Part shown: in pieces, positions 4,218-22,032 of the stretch
Numbering within the stretch: the stretch's first letter is position 1
Layout of the letters: each line of letters starts with the position of its first letter
Virus record (IMG/VR): IMGVR_UViG_3300043570_001510
Location: 1-27,564 of that record
Source of the DNA: a virus
Reading direction: 5' to 3' (one strand)
DNA: 27,564 nucleotides
Translations under genes and position numbers: made by a program
The notes under the pieces: generated by a model
The model's database searches: none
What the model was told of the DNA's origin: nothing
Seen by the model: the letters and a program-made list of their open reading frames with translations, nothing else

Positions 4218-4405
4218 CACTTACCCACTTTCTGCATTTGCACTCTAGTTACATGATTGCAACATAACGGAAGTTCACTAAGGCGAACGAACACTTCAAT
4301 AGTGTTATCGCAACTAGGACATTTATATTTTCCTTGCGCCACCAAGGAACCAGTGGTCGCCCCTCTCCGAGGGGCAACCACCTTTGCTACTGGGTTATCT
4401 GACAT
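4217..4405 (-). CDS. Small zinc-ribbon-like protein, 62 aa
   Basis: 62 residues with a basic Ala/Gly-rich N terminus and a Cys pattern CPSC...LCCNH (residues about 29-51) fitting a small zinc ribbon. The ATG start overlaps the preceding stop by one base (TAATG), with AAAGGGA upstream lying in a hairpin (4411-4427). A perfect 7-bp hairpin (4359-4375, loop TCC) sits inside the coding region. Function unknown; perhaps a nucleic-acid-binding accessory. Confidence 0.65.
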   Translation of the reverse strand: MSDNPVAKVVAPRRGATTGSLVAQGKYKCPSCDNTIEVFVRLSELPLCCNHVTRVQMQKVGK

Positions 4406-5013
4406 TATGAATTTCCCTTTAGGAAATCCTCAATTTCATTAACCAAAGAAGCACCTTGTGCTTCGCTAGCCATTGCAACCAACTTCTCGTTCACCTTGTG
4501 TGTGAGGTCAGTCAACATTTGCATCGCCACGCCATTGTGGGAGTTCGTGTTAATTTCCTCCGCCATAGTGCTTACAAGCAATTCCAATTCCTCTTTGGTT
4601 GCCAAACCGAACGACTCTGCAAGCCCCAACACAATCGTGGCTGTCGTAGCCTCGTTGTATGTTTCTGCAACATGTTCAGTGAACTTCGTTGTGAGGAACT
4701 GAAAGAAACTTTCAGGCAAATCATAATTCTCACCGTCATACTCACCATCAGGTGATTCGCCAGCAACAACTACGCAAGGACCAACAAGGTTCTTACCGAA
4801 CAATGCACTAGCGAACCAGTTTTGTTCCAAACCAATTAGCAAACCCTCATCGTGAACATAACCAACGATGACATGACCACCAACCTTGGTGGTAACACAA
4901 TCAAATGCGCCACCAACCATAGTTTGAATGTCGGTATATTCACCGACCATAACGGGTTCAATCTCAACCCCTATACCACAGGGCATAAATGCCCCTGCCA
5001 CTTGCTTACTCAT
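4405..5013 (-). CDS. DUF3846-like protein
   Basis: 202 residues from ATG 5013 (MSKQVAGAF), preceded by GGAGGT; an upstream in-frame TTG overlaps that SD and is not used here. Residues about 18-85 (EIEPV...IQTMVGGAFDCV...VHDEGLLIGLEQNWFASALFG...VGPCVVV) resemble the DUF3846 fold seen in many phage proteins of unknown function. The C-terminal half (about 100-200) is helical, with an acidic end. The SD is embedded in an inverted repeat (5017-5030). The gene leads the small zinc-protein run. The DUF assignment is pattern memory and needs a profile search. Confidence 0.7.
   Translation of the reverse strand: MSKQVAGAFMPCGIGVEIEPVMVGEYTDIQTMVGGAFDCVTTKVGGHVIVGYVHDEGLLIGLEQNWFASALFGKNLVGPCVVVAGESPDGEYDGENYDLPESFFQFLTTKFTEHVAETYNEATTATIVLGLAESFGLATKEELELLVSTMAEEINTNSHNGVAMQMLTDLTHKVNEKLVAMASEAQGASLVNEIEDFLKGNS
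4411..4427 (-). promoter_or_regulatory. Shine-Dalgarno hairpin of the 62-aa gene
   Basis: Perfect 6-bp inverted repeat (transcript ATTTCC / GGAAAT, loop TAAAG). The SD-like AAAGGGA spans the loop and the 3' arm, just upstream of the ATG at 4405. Confidence 0.4.
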
Positions 5014-5016
5014 ACA

Positions 5017-5030
5017 TACCTCCAAAGGTA
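5017..5030 (-). promoter_or_regulatory. Shine-Dalgarno hairpin of the DUF3846-like gene
   Basis: A 5-bp inverted repeat (transcript TACCT / AGGTA, loop TTGG) places GGAGGT across the loop and the 3' arm, immediately before the start codon at 5013. Confidence 0.4.
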
Positions 5031-5053
5031 CAGACTCGGACTGGAATCATCAG

Positions 5054-5090
5054 CACGGAAAAGTATCCGTGTTTACCCCCGAAGGGGTAA
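5054..5090 (-). terminator. Tandem hairpins, one with a UUCG loop
   Basis: On the minus strand a 7-bp stem (TTACCCC / GGGGTAA, 5073-5090) closes a C(UUCG)G tetraloop, followed by a second 6-bp hairpin (CACGGA / TCCGTG, 5054-5071). They lie between the membrane-protein gene and the DUF3846-like gene and probably end or stabilise the upstream transcript. No clear U-tract. Confidence 0.5.
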
Positions 5091-5112
5091 TTCATCCTTA
5101 CCAGTTGTGTTG

Positions 5113-5120
5113 TGTTTATA
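5113..5120 (-). promoter_or_regulatory. TATAAACA element, possible -10 box
   Basis: Minus-strand TATAAACA upstream of the DUF3846-like gene. The same octamer precedes the genes starting at 5588 and 6543. No convincing -35 box is visible, so promoter function is inferred from recurrence. An SD-like AGGAGGT (5131-5137) just upstream has no good gene attached. Confidence 0.35.
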
Positions 5121-5135
5121 TCTTATGCACACCTC

Positions 5136-5588
5136 CTAGAACTTGTCAAGCACCTTGCTAGTAGCAAGATACCAGTCAAATGCTTCGCTATGAGTTACGA
5201 ACACTTCACGGTCACAAACCGCAACGGGGACAACTGTCATGTCCCACAGTTCCACTTGCCACATGTTAATCGCCTCGTTCCAAAACAATTCAAACTGGAA
5301 CCCATTATCCGTAGGCAATGACAAACCTGAACTTGTTGTCCAAAACGGGGACAAAAACTCTCGCAGGTCCGCTTCCTGTTCCGCATACTTTGCATCCTTG
5401 CGAAGGTCATTCAATCCAAACAGGATGAATGTTTCCCATAATGCGAACCCAAGGAACACTGAAGTTCCAAGGAAGTTCATAAACATTGGCATAAAGCCAG
5501 TCGGTAAACCGAACCAGCCGAAACCAACCCACAATGTGAGGGCATACAACCCCCACATCAACAATGTCCGTGCTATTTGCTTTTTCAT
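5136..5588 (-). CDS. Membrane protein with two N-terminal transmembrane segments
   Basis: 150 residues. Two hydrophobic segments (about 9-28 and 35-58) are followed by a soluble, charged C-terminal domain of about 90 residues rich in aromatic residues (FQFELFWNEAINMWQVELW). The start is ATG with GGAGGTTG upstream, the SD being part of a hairpin (5593-5607). No family recognised. As an early-region membrane protein it could be involved in superinfection exclusion or host takeover, but nothing in the sequence decides this. Confidence 0.7.
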   Translation of the reverse strand: MKKQIARTLLMWGLYALTLWVGFGWFGLPTGFMPMFMNFLGTSVFLGFALWETFILFGLNDLRKDAKYAEQEADLREFLSPFWTTSSGLSLPTDNGFQFELFWNEAINMWQVELWDMTVVPVAVCDREVFVTHSEAFDWYLATSKVLDKF

Positions 5589-5592
5589 TTCT

Positions 5593-5607
5593 CAACCTCC
5601 AAGGTTG
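5593..5607 (-). promoter_or_regulatory. Shine-Dalgarno hairpin of the membrane-protein gene
   Basis: Perfect 5-bp inverted repeat (transcript CAACC / GGTTG, loop TTGGA). GGAGG spans loop and 3' arm, a few bases before the ATG at 5588. Confidence 0.45.
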
Positions 5608-6543: not shown

Positions 6544-6565
6544 ATTCAACCTCCAGTTGAATCGT
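6541..6565 (-). repeat. 25-bp leader repeat, copy 1 (also 8270-8294)
   Basis: These 25 bp, covering the start codon, SD and upstream flank, are identical to 8270-8294 in front of another gene. The repeat contains the 7-bp SD hairpin (ATTCAAC / GTTGAAT). Sequence similarity stops at both edges, so the leader has moved or been maintained as a unit. Confidence 0.85.
6544..6562 (-). promoter_or_regulatory. Shine-Dalgarno hairpin of the 281-aa gene
   Basis: Perfect 7-bp inverted repeat (transcript ATTCAAC / GTTGAAT) with loop TGGAG, so the GGAG core is looped out, followed directly by the ATG at 6543. Confidence 0.6.
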
Positions 6566-6618: not shown

Positions 6619-7905
6619 CTAAGCGGCTACCGTCAAGGTTACACCTTGACGAATTTTCTCCACTTGGTCCTGCTTTGCACCTTTCAACACCGTGGCATTG
6701 TACACCTTGTTCATGTCCATGCCCTGAGCAAGTAGCCCTGCACCGTTAGCCGTGGCTCGTGGTGACACGATGACACGCAAACCGCTAGTGGCGACATTGA
6801 TTCGGCTACGCCGTACAGCCTCCAACCACACTTTAGCAGTTGCCGAAGGCAAACCGAACCCTGCAAGCATCGCATCCTCAACACTTTCATCAATGTCAAC
6901 ATTGAAGAAAGCGAAACGGTCCAAAGTTGCACCGTCAATTGGGTTACGACCCACATACTCGGCAGTCGCACCATTACCGTAGGTATTTCCTGCGGCAACT
7001 GCGATGAAGTCGGGATGCTTAGCAACCATCCCGTCAGGGAAAGCCATAAAGCCGTTGCTCAAAGCGGAGTTAAGAACTCCGAGAACATTCGGATTCGCAT
7101 TGTCAATCTCATCCAACAAGTAAACGCCACCGTTCTGAAAGAACTCACGGAGTTTCGTAGGGACATAATTGGAATTGGCATCCTTGAAGCCCTTTAGGGC
7201 ATATTCCGTTGTTGCGGCAGTCAAGTTTTCGGCATGGAAACCAAGGTTTAAAGCCTCGGCAACTTGTGACACCATCGTGGTCTTACCAGTACCAGCAGGA
7301 CCCACAAGGAATGTGTTGCAACGGGCAGATATTGACATCATAATGTCAGCGAAAGCCATATGTTGAACACCCTTTAGGGTGACTGCTGGACGGTCCTTGA
7401 CGATGATTTGTGTAACCTTCGGTTGCATCGCCTCAATTTTCGTGTTCAAACGGTCCATAGCAACTGAAGTTGCCAAAGCCATAGGGTCAATGACATCGGA
7501 AACGATGTCACGAACCTTGTCCTCGTCAATCCCAACAGGGATTGTTTGCATAATGTTTGCAACCATAGTTGCAATCACCGCATCCAACGATGAACCGCTA
7601 GGGACTACTGCTTTAGCAGGGACAGAAGTATCAACCCTTACAGGGTTCGTATTCTGAATCACTTGATTAACAACCGTAGGTTGAACCACCATGCCATTAG
7701 CCTCCATAGCAACATCTACGATGTTGCGAATCTCGGTCAATGTCTTGTGCATCGGCGTACCGCCCCAAGTGACCTGCAAATACGAGCCAACCTTGATTAA
7801 TTCAACCTTGGAAAGGTTGTTCAGGCTAGCCCAACTGCCACCTTGGAACTGAACCCGCTTAGTACTTGTATCTACCGATACAACATTTCGTGCTTGCATT
7901 GCCAT
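6619..7905 (-). CDS. MoxR/CobS-like AAA+ ATPase
   Basis: 428 residues. An N-terminal region of about 170 residues, without a domain I recognise, precedes an AAA+ module. Walker A is GPAGTGKT at 202-209, Walker B VYLLDEID at 261-268, sensor-1 AAGNT around Asn307, and candidate arginine fingers are Arg320 and Arg330 (LDRF). The GNTYGNGATAEYVGRNPIDGATLDRF stretch is typical of CobS/MoxR-type ATPases. These remodel partner proteins, usually together with a VWA-domain protein; the downstream 281-aa gene is the candidate. A true cobaltochelatase role would need CobN/CobT, not seen here. The leader carries alternative hairpins (7903-7934). Confidence 0.85.
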   Translation of the reverse strand: MAMQARNVVSVDTSTKRVQFQGGSWASLNNLSKVELIKVGSYLQVTWGGTPMHKTLTEIRNIVDVAMEANGMVVQPTVVNQVIQNTNPVRVDTSVPAKAVVPSGSSLDAVIATMVANIMQTIPVGIDEDKVRDIVSDVIDPMALATSVAMDRLNTKIEAMQPKVTQIIVKDRPAVTLKGVQHMAFADIMMSISARCNTFLVGPAGTGKTTMVSQVAEALNLGFHAENLTAATTEYALKGFKDANSNYVPTKLREFFQNGGVYLLDEIDNANPNVLGVLNSALSNGFMAFPDGMVAKHPDFIAVAAGNTYGNGATAEYVGRNPIDGATLDRFAFFNVDIDESVEDAMLAGFGLPSATAKVWLEAVRRSRINVATSGLRVIVSPRATANGAGLLAQGMDMNKVYNATVLKGAKQDQVEKIRQGVTLTVAA

Positions 7906-7934
7906 AATGTTATCCTCCCATTATGAAATAATGG
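7903..7934 (-). promoter_or_regulatory. Two mutually exclusive hairpins over the AAA+ ribosome binding site
   Basis: Hairpin A pairs CATAATG (7919-7925 read on minus) with CATTATG (7903-7909), which contains the start codon, and puts the SD GGAGGATAA in its loop. Hairpin B pairs CCATTAT with ATAATGG (7918-7934, loop of three) just upstream and uses the same bases. Folding B frees the start codon. This resembles a two-state translational switch, inferred from sequence only. Confidence 0.45.
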
Positions 7935-8070
7935 CTGTCCGTTCACGGACATCTAATGTCATAACCCCATTGGTTATGACCACCATAGCGGACCACGACA
8001 GAATCGCACTGCCCAACACTGTAAGTGTTGCTATTTGGTCCCGAACCCTTTCAGGGTTACGCCGACTCAA
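7921..8070 (-). CDS. Possible small membrane peptide, 49 aa (tentative)
   Basis: An open frame of 49 codons from TTG 8070 that overlaps the end of the 71-aa gene and stops 15 bp before the AAA+ start. The peptide has a basic start (SRRNPERVR), a hydrophobic stretch (IATLTVLGSAILSWSAMVVI) and a charged end. Against it: a TTG start, no clear SD, and three perfect hairpins (7936-7951, 7958-7980, 8044-8058) suggesting a structured leader instead. Listed as an alternative reading of an otherwise empty 150-bp gap. Confidence 0.3.
   Translation of the reverse strand: MSRRNPERVRDQIATLTVLGSAILSWSAMVVITNGVMTLDVRERTAIIS
7936..7980 (-). promoter_or_regulatory. Pair of perfect hairpins upstream of the AAA+ gene
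   Basis: TGTCCG / CGGACA (6 bp, loop TTCA in plus orientation, 7936-7951) and GTCATAACC / GGTTATGAC (9 bp, 7958-7980) stand side by side in the leader of the AAA+ gene. They may be terminators of the preceding gene, an operator, or part of a structured 5' leader. Confidence 0.4.
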
Positions 8071-8272
8071 CCACCACAAGGTCGGACTGGTCAAACTTTG
8101 TGCATAGTTCCATGCCGTAAGCATCCATGCTTGGCACGATAAACACGCCGATGTACTCAACTTCACGACCCTCATCGTTTAAACGATAGCAGGTTTTAAT
8201 ATGGCTAATAAAGCCATAACAATCGTGCATCGGTCCTTCGGAAACGACCTTAACTTTGTCATTCAATTTCAT
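8057..8272 (-). CDS. Hypothetical protein, 71 aa
   Basis: 71 residues from the ATG at 8272 (MKLNDKVKVV). The frame stays open further upstream, but the GGAGG plus hairpin leader, identical to that of the 281-aa gene, fixes the start. The sequence (KVKVVSEGPMHDCYGFISHIK...YIGVFIVPSMDAYGMELCTKFDQSDLVVV) looks like a small beta-barrel of the KOW/SH3 kind. That is impression, not homology. A 14-bp palindrome (8174-8187) lies inside. Function unknown. Confidence 0.65.
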   Translation of the reverse strand: MKLNDKVKVVSEGPMHDCYGFISHIKTCYRLNDEGREVEYIGVFIVPSMDAYGMELCTKFDQSDLVVVESA

Positions 8273-8294
8273 ATTCAACCTCCAGTTGAATCGT
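8270..8294 (-). repeat. 25-bp leader repeat, copy 2 (also 6541-6565)
   Basis: Identical to 6541-6565. It includes the start codon and SD hairpin (8273-8291: ATTCAAC / GTTGAAT, loop TGGAG on the transcript). Upstream is a TATAAT-like element (minus strand, about 8298-8303) and a 7-bp hairpin (8306-8323), the same order as at the other left-arm leaders. Confidence 0.85.
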
Positions 8295-8305
8295 AGGATT
8301 ATATT

Positions 8306-8323
8306 TATGTCCCTTAGGACATA
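8306..8323 (-). terminator. 7-bp hairpin at the 3' side of the noncoding region
   Basis: Perfect stem TATGTCC / GGACATA with a 4-nt loop. It sits between the candidate structured RNA and the 71-aa gene, directly before a TATAAT-like element. It could end the RNA or belong to the next promoter. Confidence 0.4.
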
Positions 8324-8324
8324 G

Positions 8325-9130
8325 CGGAAAGGCAAGGAATTGAACCTCGCTAATCCCCACGATGACTCTAGCATAATGCGTCCATCATCGCAAGGATTCT
8401 CACTGCCTGCAAGCCTCCCGTGATATTCGTGGGTTATTTTCGCCCCGAACAACATTTCATGTTGGCACAAGTAATTCCGACTGCCGTCAACTTCAAGCCT
8501 GCTACTTCGTAAGTCTGCCCCACCATCATAATCATCTACGATGGTTGCGTCTTAGCCCTTAACTTCACGACTATTTTCAGTGTCAACGACAATCCTACAG
8601 ATTGTCCATGCTACCAACTAATGTGAACATCGTAAACGATGTTCGTGTCGCTTTACGCCGTCCCTCATTTCATTGAGGGAGAATAGGTTGCCCTGCGACT
8701 CCAACAGCCATCCATTGCTCATGACAAACGCCATGAGGTGTCGCTGTGTGGCGTGCCGATTCGTATTGCTCAGCACTTCGTTCGGTTGTGGTGACCCTAC
8801 CGCTAGGATTCCATGCCCTAGTCGGTTACCGTTGCCGATTCCGATGCCAACACTATGACCCCACCAAATTCAAATTGCAAGTCATTCACCGCACGCCTTT
8901 TATTGCGCCTGTTTTCCTACGCATAATGCACGCCAAAATTCACACGCTAAACACACGGTGAACCGCAAGCCCATATACCCATCGGTAACCAAGCCTCGGT
9001 TCGGACCTCGGCTCACGCCCCCGTCACACACGCATTATGAGGCGATGGGGAATTTTTGGTGGCACTTTATGGGGCAATTCATAATGCGAAATCCATAATC
9101 AAACCTCATGTAGCCACATAGCACATGGCA
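8325..9130 (-). ncRNA. Candidate large structured noncoding RNA (about 0.8 kb)
   Basis: No convincing gene on either strand, yet the stretch is full of perfect inverted repeats. Examples: CGATGA/TCATCG (8360-8390), CAACAT/ATGTTG (8450-8464), GACAAT/ATTGTC (8588-8606), GAACATCGT/ACGATGTTC (8625-8644), TCCCTCA/TGAGGGA (8661-8680), CTCATG/CATGAG (8718-8737), a long-range 11-bp arm pair (8824-8834 with 8980-8990, one mismatch) and CGCATTATGA/TCATAATGCG (9031-9088). At the low-coordinate end the minus strand has GAGGTTCAATTCC, a tRNA T-arm mimic. Both flanking genes are on the minus strand, hence the strand guess. Size and phage setting recall GOLLD and ROOL RNAs; membership is not established. 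Confidence 0.45.
9031..9088. repeat. 10-bp perfect inverted repeat CGCATTATGA / TCATAATGCG
   Basis: Arms 9031-9040 and 9079-9088, 38 bases apart. The GCATTATG core recurs at 8371-8379 and 8920-8929. It would form a closing stem near the 5' end of the candidate RNA if transcribed from the minus strand. Confidence 0.7.
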
Positions 9131-9238
9131 CAGGGGAGCATGGGGGGGTACGCCCCTATGTGTATTTATTTATATAAGGAGGTAGAGCCGATTTGTGAAA
9201 TTTTTATACGGGGGTGGCACACAAAAAAATATAATGTG
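9131..9238 (-). promoter_or_regulatory. AT-rich segment with G/C hairpin, possible promoter of the noncoding RNA
   Basis: On the minus strand an AT-rich stretch with TATAAA-like words (near 9165-9180 and 9200-9206) precedes a GGGG / CCCC hairpin (about 9142-9160). It separates the 133-aa gene from the noncoding region and could hold its promoter; no clear -35 box is seen. On the plus strand there is a GGAGGT (9178-9183) but only an antisense frame behind it. Confidence 0.25.
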
Positions 9239-9640
9239 TTATTTTTTTCGGGCTGCTCGTCCTGCTGTCCGTGCTGTTTTGGTGTTTGGTACGAACTGTT
9301 TGCCTTTGGCTGTGCCTTCACGCTTCTTTTTTGTGGTGGCAGCGTATTCTGATGTTGATAGTCTGTTGATTGCGTCTTTTGGTAGGTATCTTTCGCCTGT
9401 GGCGTTGGGTCCTTGGGTGGATGGTTTACCTGATTTGGTTGTCCATTTTTCTTTTGTCCACTTACTCAGGTTGGATTGGGCTTTGGTTTTGGTTCCTGTG
9501 TAACCTCCGCCAGCCTTCTCGTAGCGTTGTGCTGCTAGTTGGGCTTTGCGTGCGGACCATTGTCCTGCGTTTCCACCTGCGGTTCCAGCCTTGACGGCTG
9601 CAACTATTCTTGCTCTTAGTTGTGGTTTGGTGTAACCCAT
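9239..9640 (-). CDS. Basic DUF5872-like protein
   Basis: 133 residues, very rich in Lys/Arg/Ala. Motifs in order: KPQLRARIVAAVKAGTAGGN, QWSARKAQLAAQRYEKAGGGY, LSKWTKEKWTTKSGKPS, GERYLPKDAINRLS, and GKQFVPNT near the end. The central WTKxKWTTKSGKPS...ERYLP pattern is one I recall from small viral proteins of unknown function (DUF5872). It starts immediately after the stop of the upstream gene (TAA then ATG). Function unknown; it is grouped with other small basic proteins that could be DNA-associated or packaged. Confidence 0.75.
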   Translation of the reverse strand: MGYTKPQLRARIVAAVKAGTAGGNAGQWSARKAQLAAQRYEKAGGGYTGTKTKAQSNLSKWTKEKWTTKSGKPSTQGPNATGERYLPKDAINRLSTSEYAATTKKKREGTAKGKQFVPNTKTARTAGRAARKK

Positions 9641-9964
9641 TTATGAGCCTTTGACCCATTTCTGGTTTTTTGGTTGGGCTGTTTTTGATTTGTCCCATTT
9701 CACTTTGTCTGCCCACCATGCTGGTGACATTGGTCCTTTAGCAATATTCTTGGCATGACGGTTTTTGAACGCTTCGTTTTGTCCTGCTGTTTGGTTGGTT
9801 TTTACACCTTGTTGCCCGAACCTTAGAGTTTTGATTTGTCCACCTGATTTTGCTACGACAATATGGGATTTTGTTGGGTGGTTTGGTGTGCGTTTTGGCT
9901 GGTTGTAGCCTGATACACCTGCTCTTGCTAGTCGTGGGTCCCGTGATGGTTTTGAGGTTGCCAT
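9641..9964 (-). CDS. Basic DUF6321-like phage protein
   Basis: 107 residues from ATG 9964, overlapping the upstream stop by one base (TAATG); the in-frame TTG at 9979 is less likely. It contains RDPRLARAGVSGYNQPKRTP, HPTKSHIVVAKSGGQIKTLR, FGQQGVKTNQ and RHAKNIAKGPMSPAWWADKV. The HPTKSHVV...IRFGQQGV...RHAKNIAKG...YWADKVKW pattern is a recurrent phage protein of unknown function, which I recall as DUF6321. It is strongly basic. Neighbours on both sides are also small basic proteins. Confidence 0.75.
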   Translation of the reverse strand: MATSKPSRDPRLARAGVSGYNQPKRTPNHPTKSHIVVAKSGGQIKTLRFGQQGVKTNQTAGQNEAFKNRHAKNIAKGPMSPAWWADKVKWDKSKTAQPKNQKWVKGS

Positions 9965-15721: not shown

Positions 15722-16153
15722 ATGAGGAAATTTTTTGTTATCTCATTAATTATTGGCATGTTTTTTTCACCGACCAGTGTTTCTGCAAAGAAACCACTGA
15801 ACCTCAGGTGTCCAGAAATGGAGGGCATTACTCGCATTATTGCAGATAGCGATAAAATGATTCTTCAAGTGGACTATATTATGTGGCGTGAATCAAGATG
15901 CGAACCTAAGAACATTAACCGTGCCGACCCTAATGGTGGTTCAGTTGGGTTGTTTCAAATCAACAAGTTTTGGTGTAAACCAAACAGATACACCAAACAG
16001 GGTTTCCTTCAGGATGCTGGTGTGTTAAGCAAATGCCATCAACTTTATAATCCTGTTGTCTCTGCTAAAGCCTTTATGGCTATTTATGATTATGCTCATA
16101 ATCGTTATGGTGATGGTTTCGGTCCATGGGGTGGTGAACCTAAGTGGATTTAA
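15722..16153 (+). CDS. Secreted lysozyme/transglycosylase-like protein
   Basis: 143 residues with a clear signal peptide (MRKFFVISLIIGMFF..., cleavage near 22 after SVSA). The mature part has YIMWRESRCEPKNIN (candidate catalytic Glu57), GGSVGLFQINKFWC and GFGPWGG, the layout of a lysozyme-like or transglycosylase (SLT) domain. Cys30, Cys60, Cys85 and Cys105 could form disulfides outside the membrane. Target would be peptidoglycan glycan strands. A signal peptide means export independent of a holin. AGGAAA precedes the ATG; the stop lies inside the TerL start region. Confidence 0.75.
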   Translation: MRKFFVISLIIGMFFSPTSVSAKKPLNLRCPEMEGITRIIADSDKMILQVDYIMWRESRCEPKNINRADPNGGSVGLFQINKFWCKPNRYTKQGFLQDAGVLSKCHQLYNPVVSAKAFMAIYDYAHNRYGDGFGPWGGEPKWI

Positions 16154-17742
16154 ACGCACTCATAAATGAAAAAGAGTGGAGGAAATGTCGTGGTCCTGAG
16201 AAAGCAACACTTGAAGAACAACTTCAGGCTTTCACATATTTTTGTGAAACTTTTTGGTGTATTAAACATCCTGAGAAGGGTCGTATAAAGTTTAATTTGC
16301 GTGACTCGCAAATTGACACAGTTAAAACTTGGATGTCAGAGCGTTACACAATTGTGTTGAAAGCCCGTCAGATTGGGTTCTCTACTTTGGCTGCCGCATA
16401 CGCTTTCTGGTTGGTGTTCTTTGCTCCTGACCGTTTTGTTGTTATGTTATCCCGTACCGAGCGTGAATCTGTAAAGTTGCTTGCCAAGAGCAAGTATGGT
16501 TACCGTTTTATTCCACAGTGGATGAAAGAGCGTGGACCTAGGCAAACCACTGACCATCAACTTAAAATGATGTTTGATAACGAGTCTGCTATTGAGTCGC
16601 TACCATCGGGCAGCGACCCTGCTCGTGGTGAGTCGGTGTATTTGGTTATTGTGGACGAGTGGGCGTTTTTGCCTAACCCTGAAGAAGCGTGGGCTTCTAT
16701 TGAACCTATTACCGATGTCGGTGGTCGTGTTGTTGGTTTGTCCACTGCTAATGGTTCGGGAAACTTTTTTCATCAACTGTGGGTTGGTTCGCAAACAGGG
16801 TCTAACAAGTTTAAAGGAATTTTTTATCCTTGGGATGCTGATGGTGAGCGTAACGAAGATTGGTATGAGGCTAAAAGCCGTAACATGCAATCTTGGCAGA
16901 TGCACCAAGAGTATCCACGCTTCCCTGAGGAAGCGTTCATCAAATCAGGTAACCCTGTTTTTGATATTGACATGCTGAACAGCATGGAACCAGAGGATGG
17001 TCATGTTGGTTACTATCATTTATATTCTGATGGTAATGGTGAGTTCCGTTTTCAAGAAAACGGTGAACTGGAAGTTTGGTCCCATCCTGAGACTGGTGGA
17101 ACATATGTGATTGGAGCCGATGTCGCTGAAGGACTTAGTTATGGTGACTACAGTTCCGCCCATGTGGTTGACGCAGCCACAGGTCTTGTGGTTGCCCATT
17201 GGCATGGACACATTGAGCCTGACTTGTTTGGTGAACTGTTGGCTGAAATTGGTTGGTGGTATAACACAGCGTTGTTGGGTATTGAAAGCAACAACCACGG
17301 TCTGACAACCTTAAAGGCTGCACAGAAGCATGGTTATAAGAATCTTTATAAACAACGCCGCCTTAATGCTGTCCGTGCTGACCCTAGTGATGTGTTGGGT
17401 TGGCGAACCACATCCTCTAGTAAGCCGTTGGCTATTGACGAACTTAGTGCCGCTATCCGTGATGAGGGTGTAATCATATTGTGTGCTAAGACTTTGGGCG
17501 AGTTGCGAACATTTGTTCGCAAGGAGAATGGTCGTATGTCTGGTAGCCCACATGACGACAGAATTATAAGTTTGGCTATCGCTAACCAGATGTTGAAGTA
17601 TGTGTGGTTGCCCGAATATCGTGGTGATGTTTCTTTGCCAAAAAATAGTTTAATGTGGTGGGAGCAACACCTTTTTAGTGGGCAAGGTGAGAATCGGATG
17701 TTTCTTGGTTCCCATAATGTGAGAAAACGAACACCTTTTTAA
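16144..17742 (+). CDS. terL: Terminase large subunit
   Basis: 532 residues with all expected parts. ATPase: Walker A KARQIGFST at 73-81, Walker B VYLVIVDEWAF with Asp171/Glu172, coupling motif GLSTANG near 198-204. RNase-H-like nuclease: Asp326 in VIGADVAEG, Glu381 in LLGIESNNHG, Asp471/Asp472 in SPHDDRIISLA. The protein cuts concatemers and drives DNA into proheads through the portal. The start is GTG 16144, overlapping the lysozyme-like gene by 10 bp. It is separated from the small subunit by fibre and lysis genes, an unusual order. Confidence 0.95.
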   Translation: MDLNALINEKEWRKCRGPEKATLEEQLQAFTYFCETFWCIKHPEKGRIKFNLRDSQIDTVKTWMSERYTIVLKARQIGFSTLAAAYAFWLVFFAPDRFVVMLSRTERESVKLLAKSKYGYRFIPQWMKERGPRQTTDHQLKMMFDNESAIESLPSGSDPARGESVYLVIVDEWAFLPNPEEAWASIEPITDVGGRVVGLSTANGSGNFFHQLWVGSQTGSNKFKGIFYPWDADGERNEDWYEAKSRNMQSWQMHQEYPRFPEEAFIKSGNPVFDIDMLNSMEPEDGHVGYYHLYSDGNGEFRFQENGELEVWSHPETGGTYVIGADVAEGLSYGDYSSAHVVDAATGLVVAHWHGHIEPDLFGELLAEIGWWYNTALLGIESNNHGLTTLKAAQKHGYKNLYKQRRLNAVRADPSDVLGWRTTSSSKPLAIDELSAAIRDEGVIILCAKTLGELRTFVRKENGRMSGSPHDDRIISLAIANQMLKYVWLPEYRGDVSLPKNSLMWWEQHLFSGQGENRMFLGSHNVRKRTPF

Positions 17743-20278: not shown

Positions 20279-21064
20279 ATGAGTGATGAACTCGTAACAA
20301 CACCGTCTGTGGAACCCGAAGGGTCACCCGTTACAGAAAGTGTTTCAGAAAGCCCGAATACACCAATTTTATCTGTTGAGGAATATTCTAATTATAGAGT
20401 TCCAATCAAATTAGATGGTGAGGATTTGGAAGTACCTCTAAGTGAGGCACTCGCTGGTTATCAACGCCAAGCAGATTATACTCGTAAGACGCAAGAACTT
20501 GCACAGCAAAAAGAACAGTTTCAATTTGCTACTGCACTTCAATCGGCTTTAGATAATGACCCTGCCGCCACGATTGACCTGTTGAGCAAACATTATGGTA
20601 TCAGCCGTCAGGCTGTTAGCGAAATGATTGCTGATGGTGAAGATTTTGATTCTTTGGACCCTACGGAACAAAAGTATCGGGAACTTGACAAGCGTCTTGC
20701 ATCGTTTGAGGATTATCAATCCAAACAAGAAATTGAGCGTGAAGTTCAACGACTAAAGTCCAAATATGAGGATTTCAATATCAATGAAGTTGTTACAACC
20801 GCTTTGCGGATGAACTCAACGGATTTGGAAGGCACATACAAGCAGATGGCGTTTGATAAAATGATGGCAAAAGCAGAACTAGAACGGCAAGCCCGTGAAG
20901 TCCAACAGCAGAAAGAAAACTCTTTGTTGGAATCCAAAAGGCAAGCCAGTGTGGTATCGGGTGGTTCGTCCGCTACGGCTAACACAACTAGTGAAAGTTT
21001 TGAACCCATTACATCAGTCGCTGAGGCTTGGGCAGCAGCCAAGCGTTCTATGGGCGCAAATTAA
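20279..21064 (+). CDS. Scaffolding protein
   Basis: 261 residues, acidic and highly charged, between portal and capsid genes, the classical scaffold position. The N-terminal part is Ser/Pro/Glu-rich, then YRVPIKLDGEDLEVPLSEALAGYQRQADYTRKTQEL (about 39-74), a motif I recall from phage scaffolds. Long helices or coiled coil follow at 130-215. The C terminus (SVAEAWAAAKRSMGAN) is probably the basic capsid-binding helix. TAGGAGA precedes the ATG. No protease signature is seen within it. Confidence 0.85.
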   Translation: MSDELVTTPSVEPEGSPVTESVSESPNTPILSVEEYSNYRVPIKLDGEDLEVPLSEALAGYQRQADYTRKTQELAQQKEQFQFATALQSALDNDPAATIDLLSKHYGISRQAVSEMIADGEDFDSLDPTEQKYRELDKRLASFEDYQSKQEIEREVQRLKSKYEDFNINEVVTTALRMNSTDLEGTYKQMAFDKMMAKAELERQAREVQQQKENSLLESKRQASVVSGGSSATANTTSESFEPITSVAEAWAAAKRSMGAN

Positions 21065-21093
21065 AAACTACTACATTCTTTTAGGAGAACATA

Positions 21094-22032
21094 ATGTCTA
21101 ATGCAAACTTTGATGCGTTGCTCAGTACAACGCTCGCAAACTATCGTGACCAACTCACGGACAACATCTTTACGGCACGCCCGTTGACCTACTTCCTTCA
21201 GGATAAGGGTCGCATCCGCATGCTTAACGGTGGAACCAAGATTGTTGAGCCACTCATCTACGGTGAAAGTTCAACTGTTAAGTCGTACAGTGGTTATGAC
21301 TCAATCTCGTTGACCGCACAAACTGGCATCACGGCTGCTGAATACGATTGGAAGCAGTACGCTGCATCAATCGCAATTAGCGGTATTGAAGAAGCCAAGA
21401 ACAACGGTGAACAAGAAATCATCAACTTGTTGGAAGCCAAAATCATGCAGGCTGAAGAATCAATGCGTGAAGGTTTCAACCGCATGTTCTACGCCGATGG
21501 AACTGGCAACAGCAGCAAGGACTGGAACGGTCTTGGAAACCTCGTTGAGGCTTCAGGAACCGTTGGCGGTATCAACCGTGCAACAGCAGGTAACGAGTAC
21601 TGGCGTTCATACGAGGAAAACACCGCAACAGCGTTGACCCTCGCACAAATGTCAACTGCTTACAACAGCGTTTCTGTTGGTAACGACCACCCAGACATGG
21701 TTCTCACAACCCAGACTTTGTTTGAAAAGTATGAGGCTCTATTGCAGCCACAACTTCGTTACACCGACACCAAGACCGCAGATGCTGGATTCCAGAACCT
21801 GTTGTTCAAGGCTGCTCCTGTTGTTTACGATGAGCATTGCACCGCAGGTATTGTGTACTTCTTGAACAGCAAGTACCTAACCTTGGTTGGTCACTCAGGC
21901 AAGTGGTTCTCACAAACCGAGTTTGTTCGTCCTGAGGACTTGGATGCCCGTTATGCACTCATCATGTGCTACGGAAACCTCACCTGCCGTAACGCTGCAA
22001 AGCAAGGCAAGTTGACGGCTAAGACAGCCTAG
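21094..22032 (+). CDS. Major capsid protein
   Basis: 312 residues. MSNANFDALLSTTLANYRDQLTDNIFTARPLTYFL is an N-terminal arm typical of HK97-fold capsid proteins. It continues with a GGTKIVEPLIYGESSTVKSYSGYD strand region and a long spine helix (EEAKNNGEQEIINLLEAKIMQAEESMREGFNRMFY, about 98-131). VVYDEHCTAGIVYFLNSKYL then lies near the P-domain. A strong TTTTAGGAGA SD and a terminator-like hairpin after the stop fit a highly expressed gene. No long N-terminal delta domain, consistent with the separate scaffold. Confidence 0.9.
   Translation: MSNANFDALLSTTLANYRDQLTDNIFTARPLTYFLQDKGRIRMLNGGTKIVEPLIYGESSTVKSYSGYDSISLTAQTGITAAEYDWKQYAASIAISGIEEAKNNGEQEIINLLEAKIMQAEESMREGFNRMFYADGTGNSSKDWNGLGNLVEASGTVGGINRATAGNEYWRSYEENTATALTLAQMSTAYNSVSVGNDHPDMVLTTQTLFEKYEALLQPQLRYTDTKTADAGFQNLLFKAAPVVYDEHCTAGIVYFLNSKYLTLVGHSGKWFSQTEFVRPEDLDARYALIMCYGNLTCRNAAKQGKLTAKTA

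Follow-up and report, generated by a model that had tools for sequence, protein, structure and literature searches.

A structured minus-strand RNA of an uncultured phage family, with a tRNA-like 3' domain that type II hammerhead motifs replace in sibling phages

In animal mitochondria, tRNAs punctuate polycistronic transcripts by acting as cutting signals, and in the MALAT1/mascRNA system a tRNA-like fold marks the site of cutting and thereby sets the end of the neighbouring RNA. In plant RNA viruses, the RNA genome terminates in a 3' structure that mimics a tRNA. The locus described here resembles the first two systems in that a tRNA-like fold would define the end of the neighbouring RNA, and differs from them in that the element belongs to a phage, is not a tRNA and is swappable with ribozymes, and in that cutting is here something we infer. 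With the plant-virus structures it shares a 3' tRNA mimic on a viral RNA; those end RNA genomes, whereas the transcript that the mimic ends here is non-coding and belongs to a DNA phage. Among phages, GOLLD and ROOL are large RNAs found near tRNA islands, with tRNAs sometimes present in the GOLLD linker (PMC12286853), and type II hammerheads, phage examples included, have already been described (PMC3088659). A literature search confined to papers outside subscription, large supplementary lists of candidate RNAs apart, returned no phage non-coding RNA that carries a tRNA-like domain at its 3' end, and no exchange of such a domain for a hammerhead.

The window (the whole stretch of DNA that was analysed) is a 27.6-kb record of an uncultured phage with podovirus-like late genes (TerL at 16144-17742, portal, major head protein), for which the nearest annotated phage is the uncultured podovirus MW202803 (L154). 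ARAGORN finds no tRNA gene in the window, and a covariance-model search finds no Rfam match at gathering threshold. On the early, minus-strand side lies a stretch that the earlier note had described as gene-free and had read as a candidate giant RNA. Indeed, neither strand has a convincing ORF between the DUF5872-like gene and the 71-aa gene. The features of this region, in minus-strand order, are as follows:

9239-9640, minus strand: DUF5872-like gene, bounding the gene-free stretch on its upstream flank
8890-9163, minus strand: region A, a conserved non-coding element that precedes the RNA, with ATAGGGGCGTACCCCCCCATGC and a GCATTATGC site
8852-8880, minus strand: sigma-70-like promoter TTGCAA-17-CATAGT, in the arrangement of the homologues
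8420-8848, minus strand: RNA body of about 429 nt, starting GGCATCGGAATCGGCAACGG, with covariation and no conserved ORF
8661-8680, minus strand: body hairpin TCCCTCA..TGAGGGA with compensatory changes, and after it an invariant CGGCGTAAA
8625-8644, minus strand: body hairpin GAACATCG-TTTA-CGATGTTC with compensatory changes
8325-8419, minus strand: TLS1, the 3' tRNA-like cloverleaf, 95 nt
8306-8323, minus strand: hairpin right after TLS1, with compensating variants (TATGTCC..GGACATA, AACCCC..GGGGTT) and no long U run
8057-8272, minus strand: 71-aa gene (ATG at 8272), between TLS1 and TLS2
7989-8041, minus strand: TLS2, a second, shorter tRNA-like element ahead of the ATPase gene
6619-7905, minus strand: MoxR-like AAA ATPase gene (Pfam AAA_5, PHROG 249, relatives), the downstream syntenic anchor

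The ATPase protein was used as a query and gave 35 loci, to which DNA motifs added more, and an ATPase profile gave 80 loci, many being contigs already found; run against genome contigs in search of a host, the profile returned distant ATPases only. The close relatives (clade I: L002-L018, L046 and L072) can be aligned over the whole stretch. All distant relatives retain a match to region A (nhmmer profile), followed by a non-coding gap of the size of the RNA, and the RNA locus is syntenic across related phages. A tRNA-Asn gene lies upstream of it in a number of relatives (L015, L026, L027, L029, L032, L033, L051, L057, L063, L088, L109 and L113), with a tRNA-Lys gene instead in L019. The longest frames disagree in strand, frame and length across the homologues, so no reading frame is conserved, and a protein-coding gene in the stretch was rejected. 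In L024, one module of the RNA (GCTGACATCGCAGA...ACTGTCC) is tandemly duplicated around 4250-5200.

In most homologues, TTGACA/TTGCAA, a spacer of 16-18 nt and TANNNT stand 5-10 nt ahead of a conserved GGCATCGG-type start, the picks having been made by automatic means, with some of them doubtful and six loci giving none. The copy in the window is weak, with 8 of 12 consensus positions, and is missed by a generic promoter scan. The promoter position implies an RNA start near 8848 and a transcript of about 520 nt, with region A mostly outside. Considered as RNA, region A was rejected for its weak structural signal (alifold z of about +0.6 to -3), and it is probably a DNA element or leader rather than the RNA proper. 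Its ACCCCCCCATGC and GCATTATGC elements are conserved in very distant relatives and could be a regulatory or replication site.

The covariation sought in the homologues is found. For 14 clade I sequences, RNAalifold gives 93 pairs, of which 40 are changed on both sides. With RIBOSUM scoring it gives 128 pairs, for which 94.7% of the cells are paired (35-47% with slid partners) and 50 pairs show double changes (5-17 when slid), figures which lean towards structure because the structure was derived from the same sequences. In this version 222 cells are G-U and 8 are A-C, which places the RNA on the minus strand. Under a phylogeny-aware null of low power, the top three column pairs overall are all Watson-Crick, the first with E<0.02 and the next two at about 0.1. 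Windowed alifold, run on five sequences only, is strongest at 8279-8453 (z of -9.5 on the minus strand versus -4.4 on the plus strand), and is also raised in parts of the flanking genes. The thermodynamic and covariation signal is located in 8848-8290 and not in 8890-9130. A large structured RNA is therefore supported, while the size claimed for it is not: it runs from about 8848 to 8325 on the minus strand, about 520 nt instead of 0.8 kb, and occupies the 3' two thirds of the gene-free stretch, with its 3' end falling on the lower boundary that the earlier note had drawn. Since covariation is present in the homologues and a conserved protein, also looked for there, is not, the structured-RNA reading is not refuted. 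The body of this RNA probably acts in trans, as a stable phage RNA.

The earlier note had further suggested kinship with GOLLD or ROOL, and this part finds no support. The Rfam covariance model for GOLLD has no match at gathering threshold, none with E up to 5 in 7800-9700 and none in the relatives, and that for ROOL has none in the window or in the relatives; membership of either class was rejected on these grounds, permissive thresholds included. As with GOLLD, the RNA is large and phage-borne, with a strongly conserved 3' part, a more variable 5' part and tRNA genes nearby in relatives. It differs in that GOLLD often exceeds 800 nt, while the present RNA is predicted from promoter and 3' domain to be about 520 nt and has a tRNA-like end. 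ROOL is likewise a large phage RNA near tRNAs, without a covariance match here. The resemblance is confined to size class and neighbourhood only. What stands is the suggestion that the phage makes a large structured RNA from the minus strand, belonging to a class absent from Rfam, on the evidence of covariation, G-U strand asymmetry, promoter, synteny and the lack of a frame. It could be proposed by analogy that the body forms a nanocage-like or multimeric ornate RNA in the manner of GOLLD or ROOL, without homology to them, and that the tRNA-like end would serve its processing only. We consider this unlikely: the RNA is large, multibranched and phage-borne, with an adjoining tRNA gene in relatives, much as GOLLD and ROOL are large phage RNAs by tRNA islands (PMC12286853), but it is shorter than these and has no similarity to them in Rfam.

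The 3' end of the RNA, TLS1, consists of the following parts:

8419-8414/8331-8326, minus strand: acceptor GGGAGG/CTTTCC
8413-8399, minus strand: D-arm CTTGC-AGGCA-GTGAG
8398-8352, minus strand: extended third arm
8350-8332, minus strand: T-arm GCGAGG-TTCAATT-CCTTGC
8325, minus strand: discriminator position, G

The acceptor stem and the T stem total 12 bp, as they do in a tRNA, and form the stack of about that length expected of a tRNA-like structure, together with a D-arm or linker with G. The T-loop has U54, C56, R57 and A58, both in TLS1 (TTCAATT) and in TLS2 (TGCGATT). Variants which keep the pairing are seen in the D-arm (TTTGC/GTGAA, TTCGC/GTGAA, CTGGC/GTCAG, CACAC/GTGTG) and in the T-arm (ACGAGG/CCTTGT, ACGGGG/CCCTGT). 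Subclades Ia and Ib, folded separately, give the same D-like, third and T-arms; in part of subclade Ib the acceptor has a U-U mismatch and its helix was assigned by hand. Overall, 98.7% of the TLS1 cells are paired versus 40-62% when slid, with the D-arm and T-arm at 100%. The TLS1 of the window folded alone has an MFE and a centroid identical to the model (z -3.6). Three other clade I copies were folded singly: the model is recovered for L004, and in L012 and L013 the acceptor is lost partly or wholly. The acceptor helix is nearly invariant in clade I, with 4 of 6 pairs never varying, and its TTCCG can instead pair with CGGAA at the RNA 5' end. This outer stem is judged less likely than the local acceptor GGGAGG/CTTTCC. 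In clade I the discriminator is followed by CTA and CCA is not encoded; in L019, the 3' end of the body shows no tRNA-like element and no hammerhead.

The third arm, of 12-14 bp, has a conserved TGGAC/TAGAG internal loop, after which it ends in GCA-TTA-TGC and not in a seven-base anticodon-like loop. TLS1 was accordingly rejected as a tRNA gene, the seven-base anticodon loop being missing and ARAGORN finding none in the window, and also as a tmRNA, for which ARAGORN and Rfam are negative and the 5' strand of the acceptor is local, within the 95-nt element. Recognition by AlaRS through a G3-U70 pair was rejected as an identity because it is inconsistent across members.

TLS2 comprises an acceptor (GGACCA/TGGTCC), a TAG linker, a hairpin, a T-arm (GGCAG-TGCGATT-CTGTC) and a G at the discriminator position, and folds as expected (z -3.6). 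A rule-based scan of both strands of the whole window (27.5 kb) returns TLS1 and TLS2 only. Across 41 loci, the 2.5-kb segments that precede the ATPase contain 57 sense copies and 0 antisense copies of a T-loop motif with 5/5 stem pairs, where shuffles give 0.35; the 57 are not independent events, because the loci include close relatives. About 13 of them are tRNA genes, mostly the tRNA-Asn just upstream of region A, and the remainder are tRNA-like elements of several subtypes. The element of L094 has the AGGCA D-arm of TLS1, and in those of clade II a TAG linker replaces the D-arm and the T-loop is TGCRATT, in some followed by CCA. A stricter element finder gives 51 sense hits and 1 antisense in 604 kb.

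This asymmetry bears on whether the stretch holds anything specific at all. The density of inverted repeats had been taken as a sign of RNA. The two long-range arm pairs singled out are present (8824-8834/8980-8990 at 91%, 9031-9040/9079-9088 at 100%), but in the alignment they are lost in many homologues, and both span or sit upstream of the conserved promoter. Perfect short hairpins number 5 in the gene-free interval, where shuffles give 1.2, and 140 in the whole window, where shuffles give 48.3 +/- 5.7, an approximately threefold excess, inside genes too. This excess peaks at 4-8.6 kb, with coding DNA from 4 to 8 kb equally dense. As the enrichment is genome-wide, coding DNA included, and not special to the interval, hairpin density is not evidence for an RNA here. 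In the relatives, the excess of short hairpins is about two- to fivefold. It is hardly credible, however, that this excess is all there is: the flanking coding alignments do fold well too, yet the loop sequences are invariant, the cloverleaf is multibranched, and both the 57 to 0 strand asymmetry and the presence of exactly two elements in 27.5 kb contradict such a reading.

At the same place where clade I has TLS1, L090, L091, L100 and L109 have no T-arm and instead carry a type II hammerhead, with a layout such as GAAC-GAAA-stem III-TC-stem I-CTGACGA-GTTC. The rule used (a CUGANGA ... GAAA core with closed stems I and III, an open stem II and a UH cleavage site) gives 38 motifs in sense and 0 in antisense, identifying type II hammerheads in relatives and none in the window. 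With Rfam Hammerhead_II, the sole report is L094 at 28.7 bits, below the cut-off of 37, so the hammerheads are assigned by motif and geometry. In two lineages, the RNA body is the same but carries the hammerhead instead of the tRNA-like element. The bodies of L093 (tRNA-like) and L100 (hammerhead) share 72% identity over 409 nt (E 1e-54), those of L093 and L109 (hammerhead) 76% over 251 nt, and those of L113 (tRNA-like, its T-arm recognised by eye) and of L090 (hammerhead) 77% over 154 nt. The same holds for the junction ahead of the ATPase, with TLS2 in the clade of the window and a hammerhead in L088, L090, L094, L100, L109, L112 and L113. Thus, type II hammerheads stand in sibling phages at the junctions where the window carries tRNA-like elements, an interchangeability that the earlier note had not anticipated. 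Additional type II hammerhead motifs, as many as four in one locus, are found elsewhere on the same strand, 2-3.3 kb past the start of the ATPase (L009, L013, L090, L092, L093, L098, L100, L112 and L113).

The presence of a hammerhead at the same place suggests that the tRNA shape is a cutting site for host tRNA-trimming enzymes. Structure, strand and position are conserved, the elements recur, and hammerheads take their place; from sequence, we infer cleavage, the enzymes involved and read-through. In the reading that we hold to be probable, the tRNA-like elements are punctuation which lets host RNase P or tRNase Z release the RNA. A minus-strand non-coding RNA, with a body of about 430 nt and the 95-nt TLS1, would be transcribed from its own promoter, and since no intrinsic terminator follows it, transcription probably continues into the 71-aa and ATPase genes. 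Host RNase P on the 5' side, and tRNase Z or exonucleases on the 3' side, would cut at these elements after recognising their acceptor/T-arm stack and elbow. The cut at TLS1 would set the 3' end of the body and separate it from the downstream mRNAs, and TLS2 would have the same role ahead of the ATPase. In sibling phages, the type II hammerheads at those junctions would cut themselves, as the functional equivalent.

The strongest of the rival readings is that of a true tRNA mimic, uncut, and CCA-tailed, charged or bound by a tRNA-handling protein (synthetase, EF-Tu, tRNA-targeting defence nucleases), which would act as a decoy or in a tmRNA-like manner. The D-loop GG and T-loop UUC are elbow-like, a G3-U70-type wobble is present in Ia, L009 and L010, and CCA is encoded in L026, L032 and others. 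We nevertheless regard it as rather unlikely, considering that position 3-70 is U-U or A-U in other members, that the third arm has no anticodon-like seven-base loop, and that neither charging nor a decoy role predicts replacement by hammerheads. The RNA might also not be a separate molecule but belong to the operon of the 71-aa gene and ATPase, either as its long structured 5' leader or as a regulatory UTR; it is on the same strand, immediately upstream, with no clear terminator in between. This is very unlikely, as the small genes downstream change among phages while the RNA is kept, and in most phages a tRNA-like element or ribozyme stands between RNA and gene.

Returning to punctuation by cutting, a broader claim, to which we give credence and doubt in equal measure, is that the RNA represents a new class of large non-coding phage RNAs, the 3' end of which would be provided by an exchangeable processing cassette, either a tRNA-like cloverleaf for host tRNA enzymes to cut or a hammerhead, and that such cassettes would punctuate the early operon throughout this uncultured phage family. 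If true, a DNA phage trading a tRNA-like fold with a ribozyme for transcript punctuation would be a new use of that fold, and the exchange of cassettes on one RNA body is a natural experiment pointing to cutting as the function of the tRNA-like fold. The locus also defines a large phage RNA family missing from Rfam, one that synthetic RNA and purified RNase P make testable without phage culture.

In MW202803, the rule-based search gives no tRNA-like element and one hammerhead-like motif. This phage encodes an RNA ligase (20569-21669), possibly tied to RNA cleavage products. In the window, the Shine-Dalgarno sequence of several minus-strand genes lies within the loop of a perfect hairpin, e.g. 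ATTCAACTGGAGGTTGAAT (sites at 8273-8291, 6544-6562, 7903-7925 and 5593-5607), and the same is seen in relatives.
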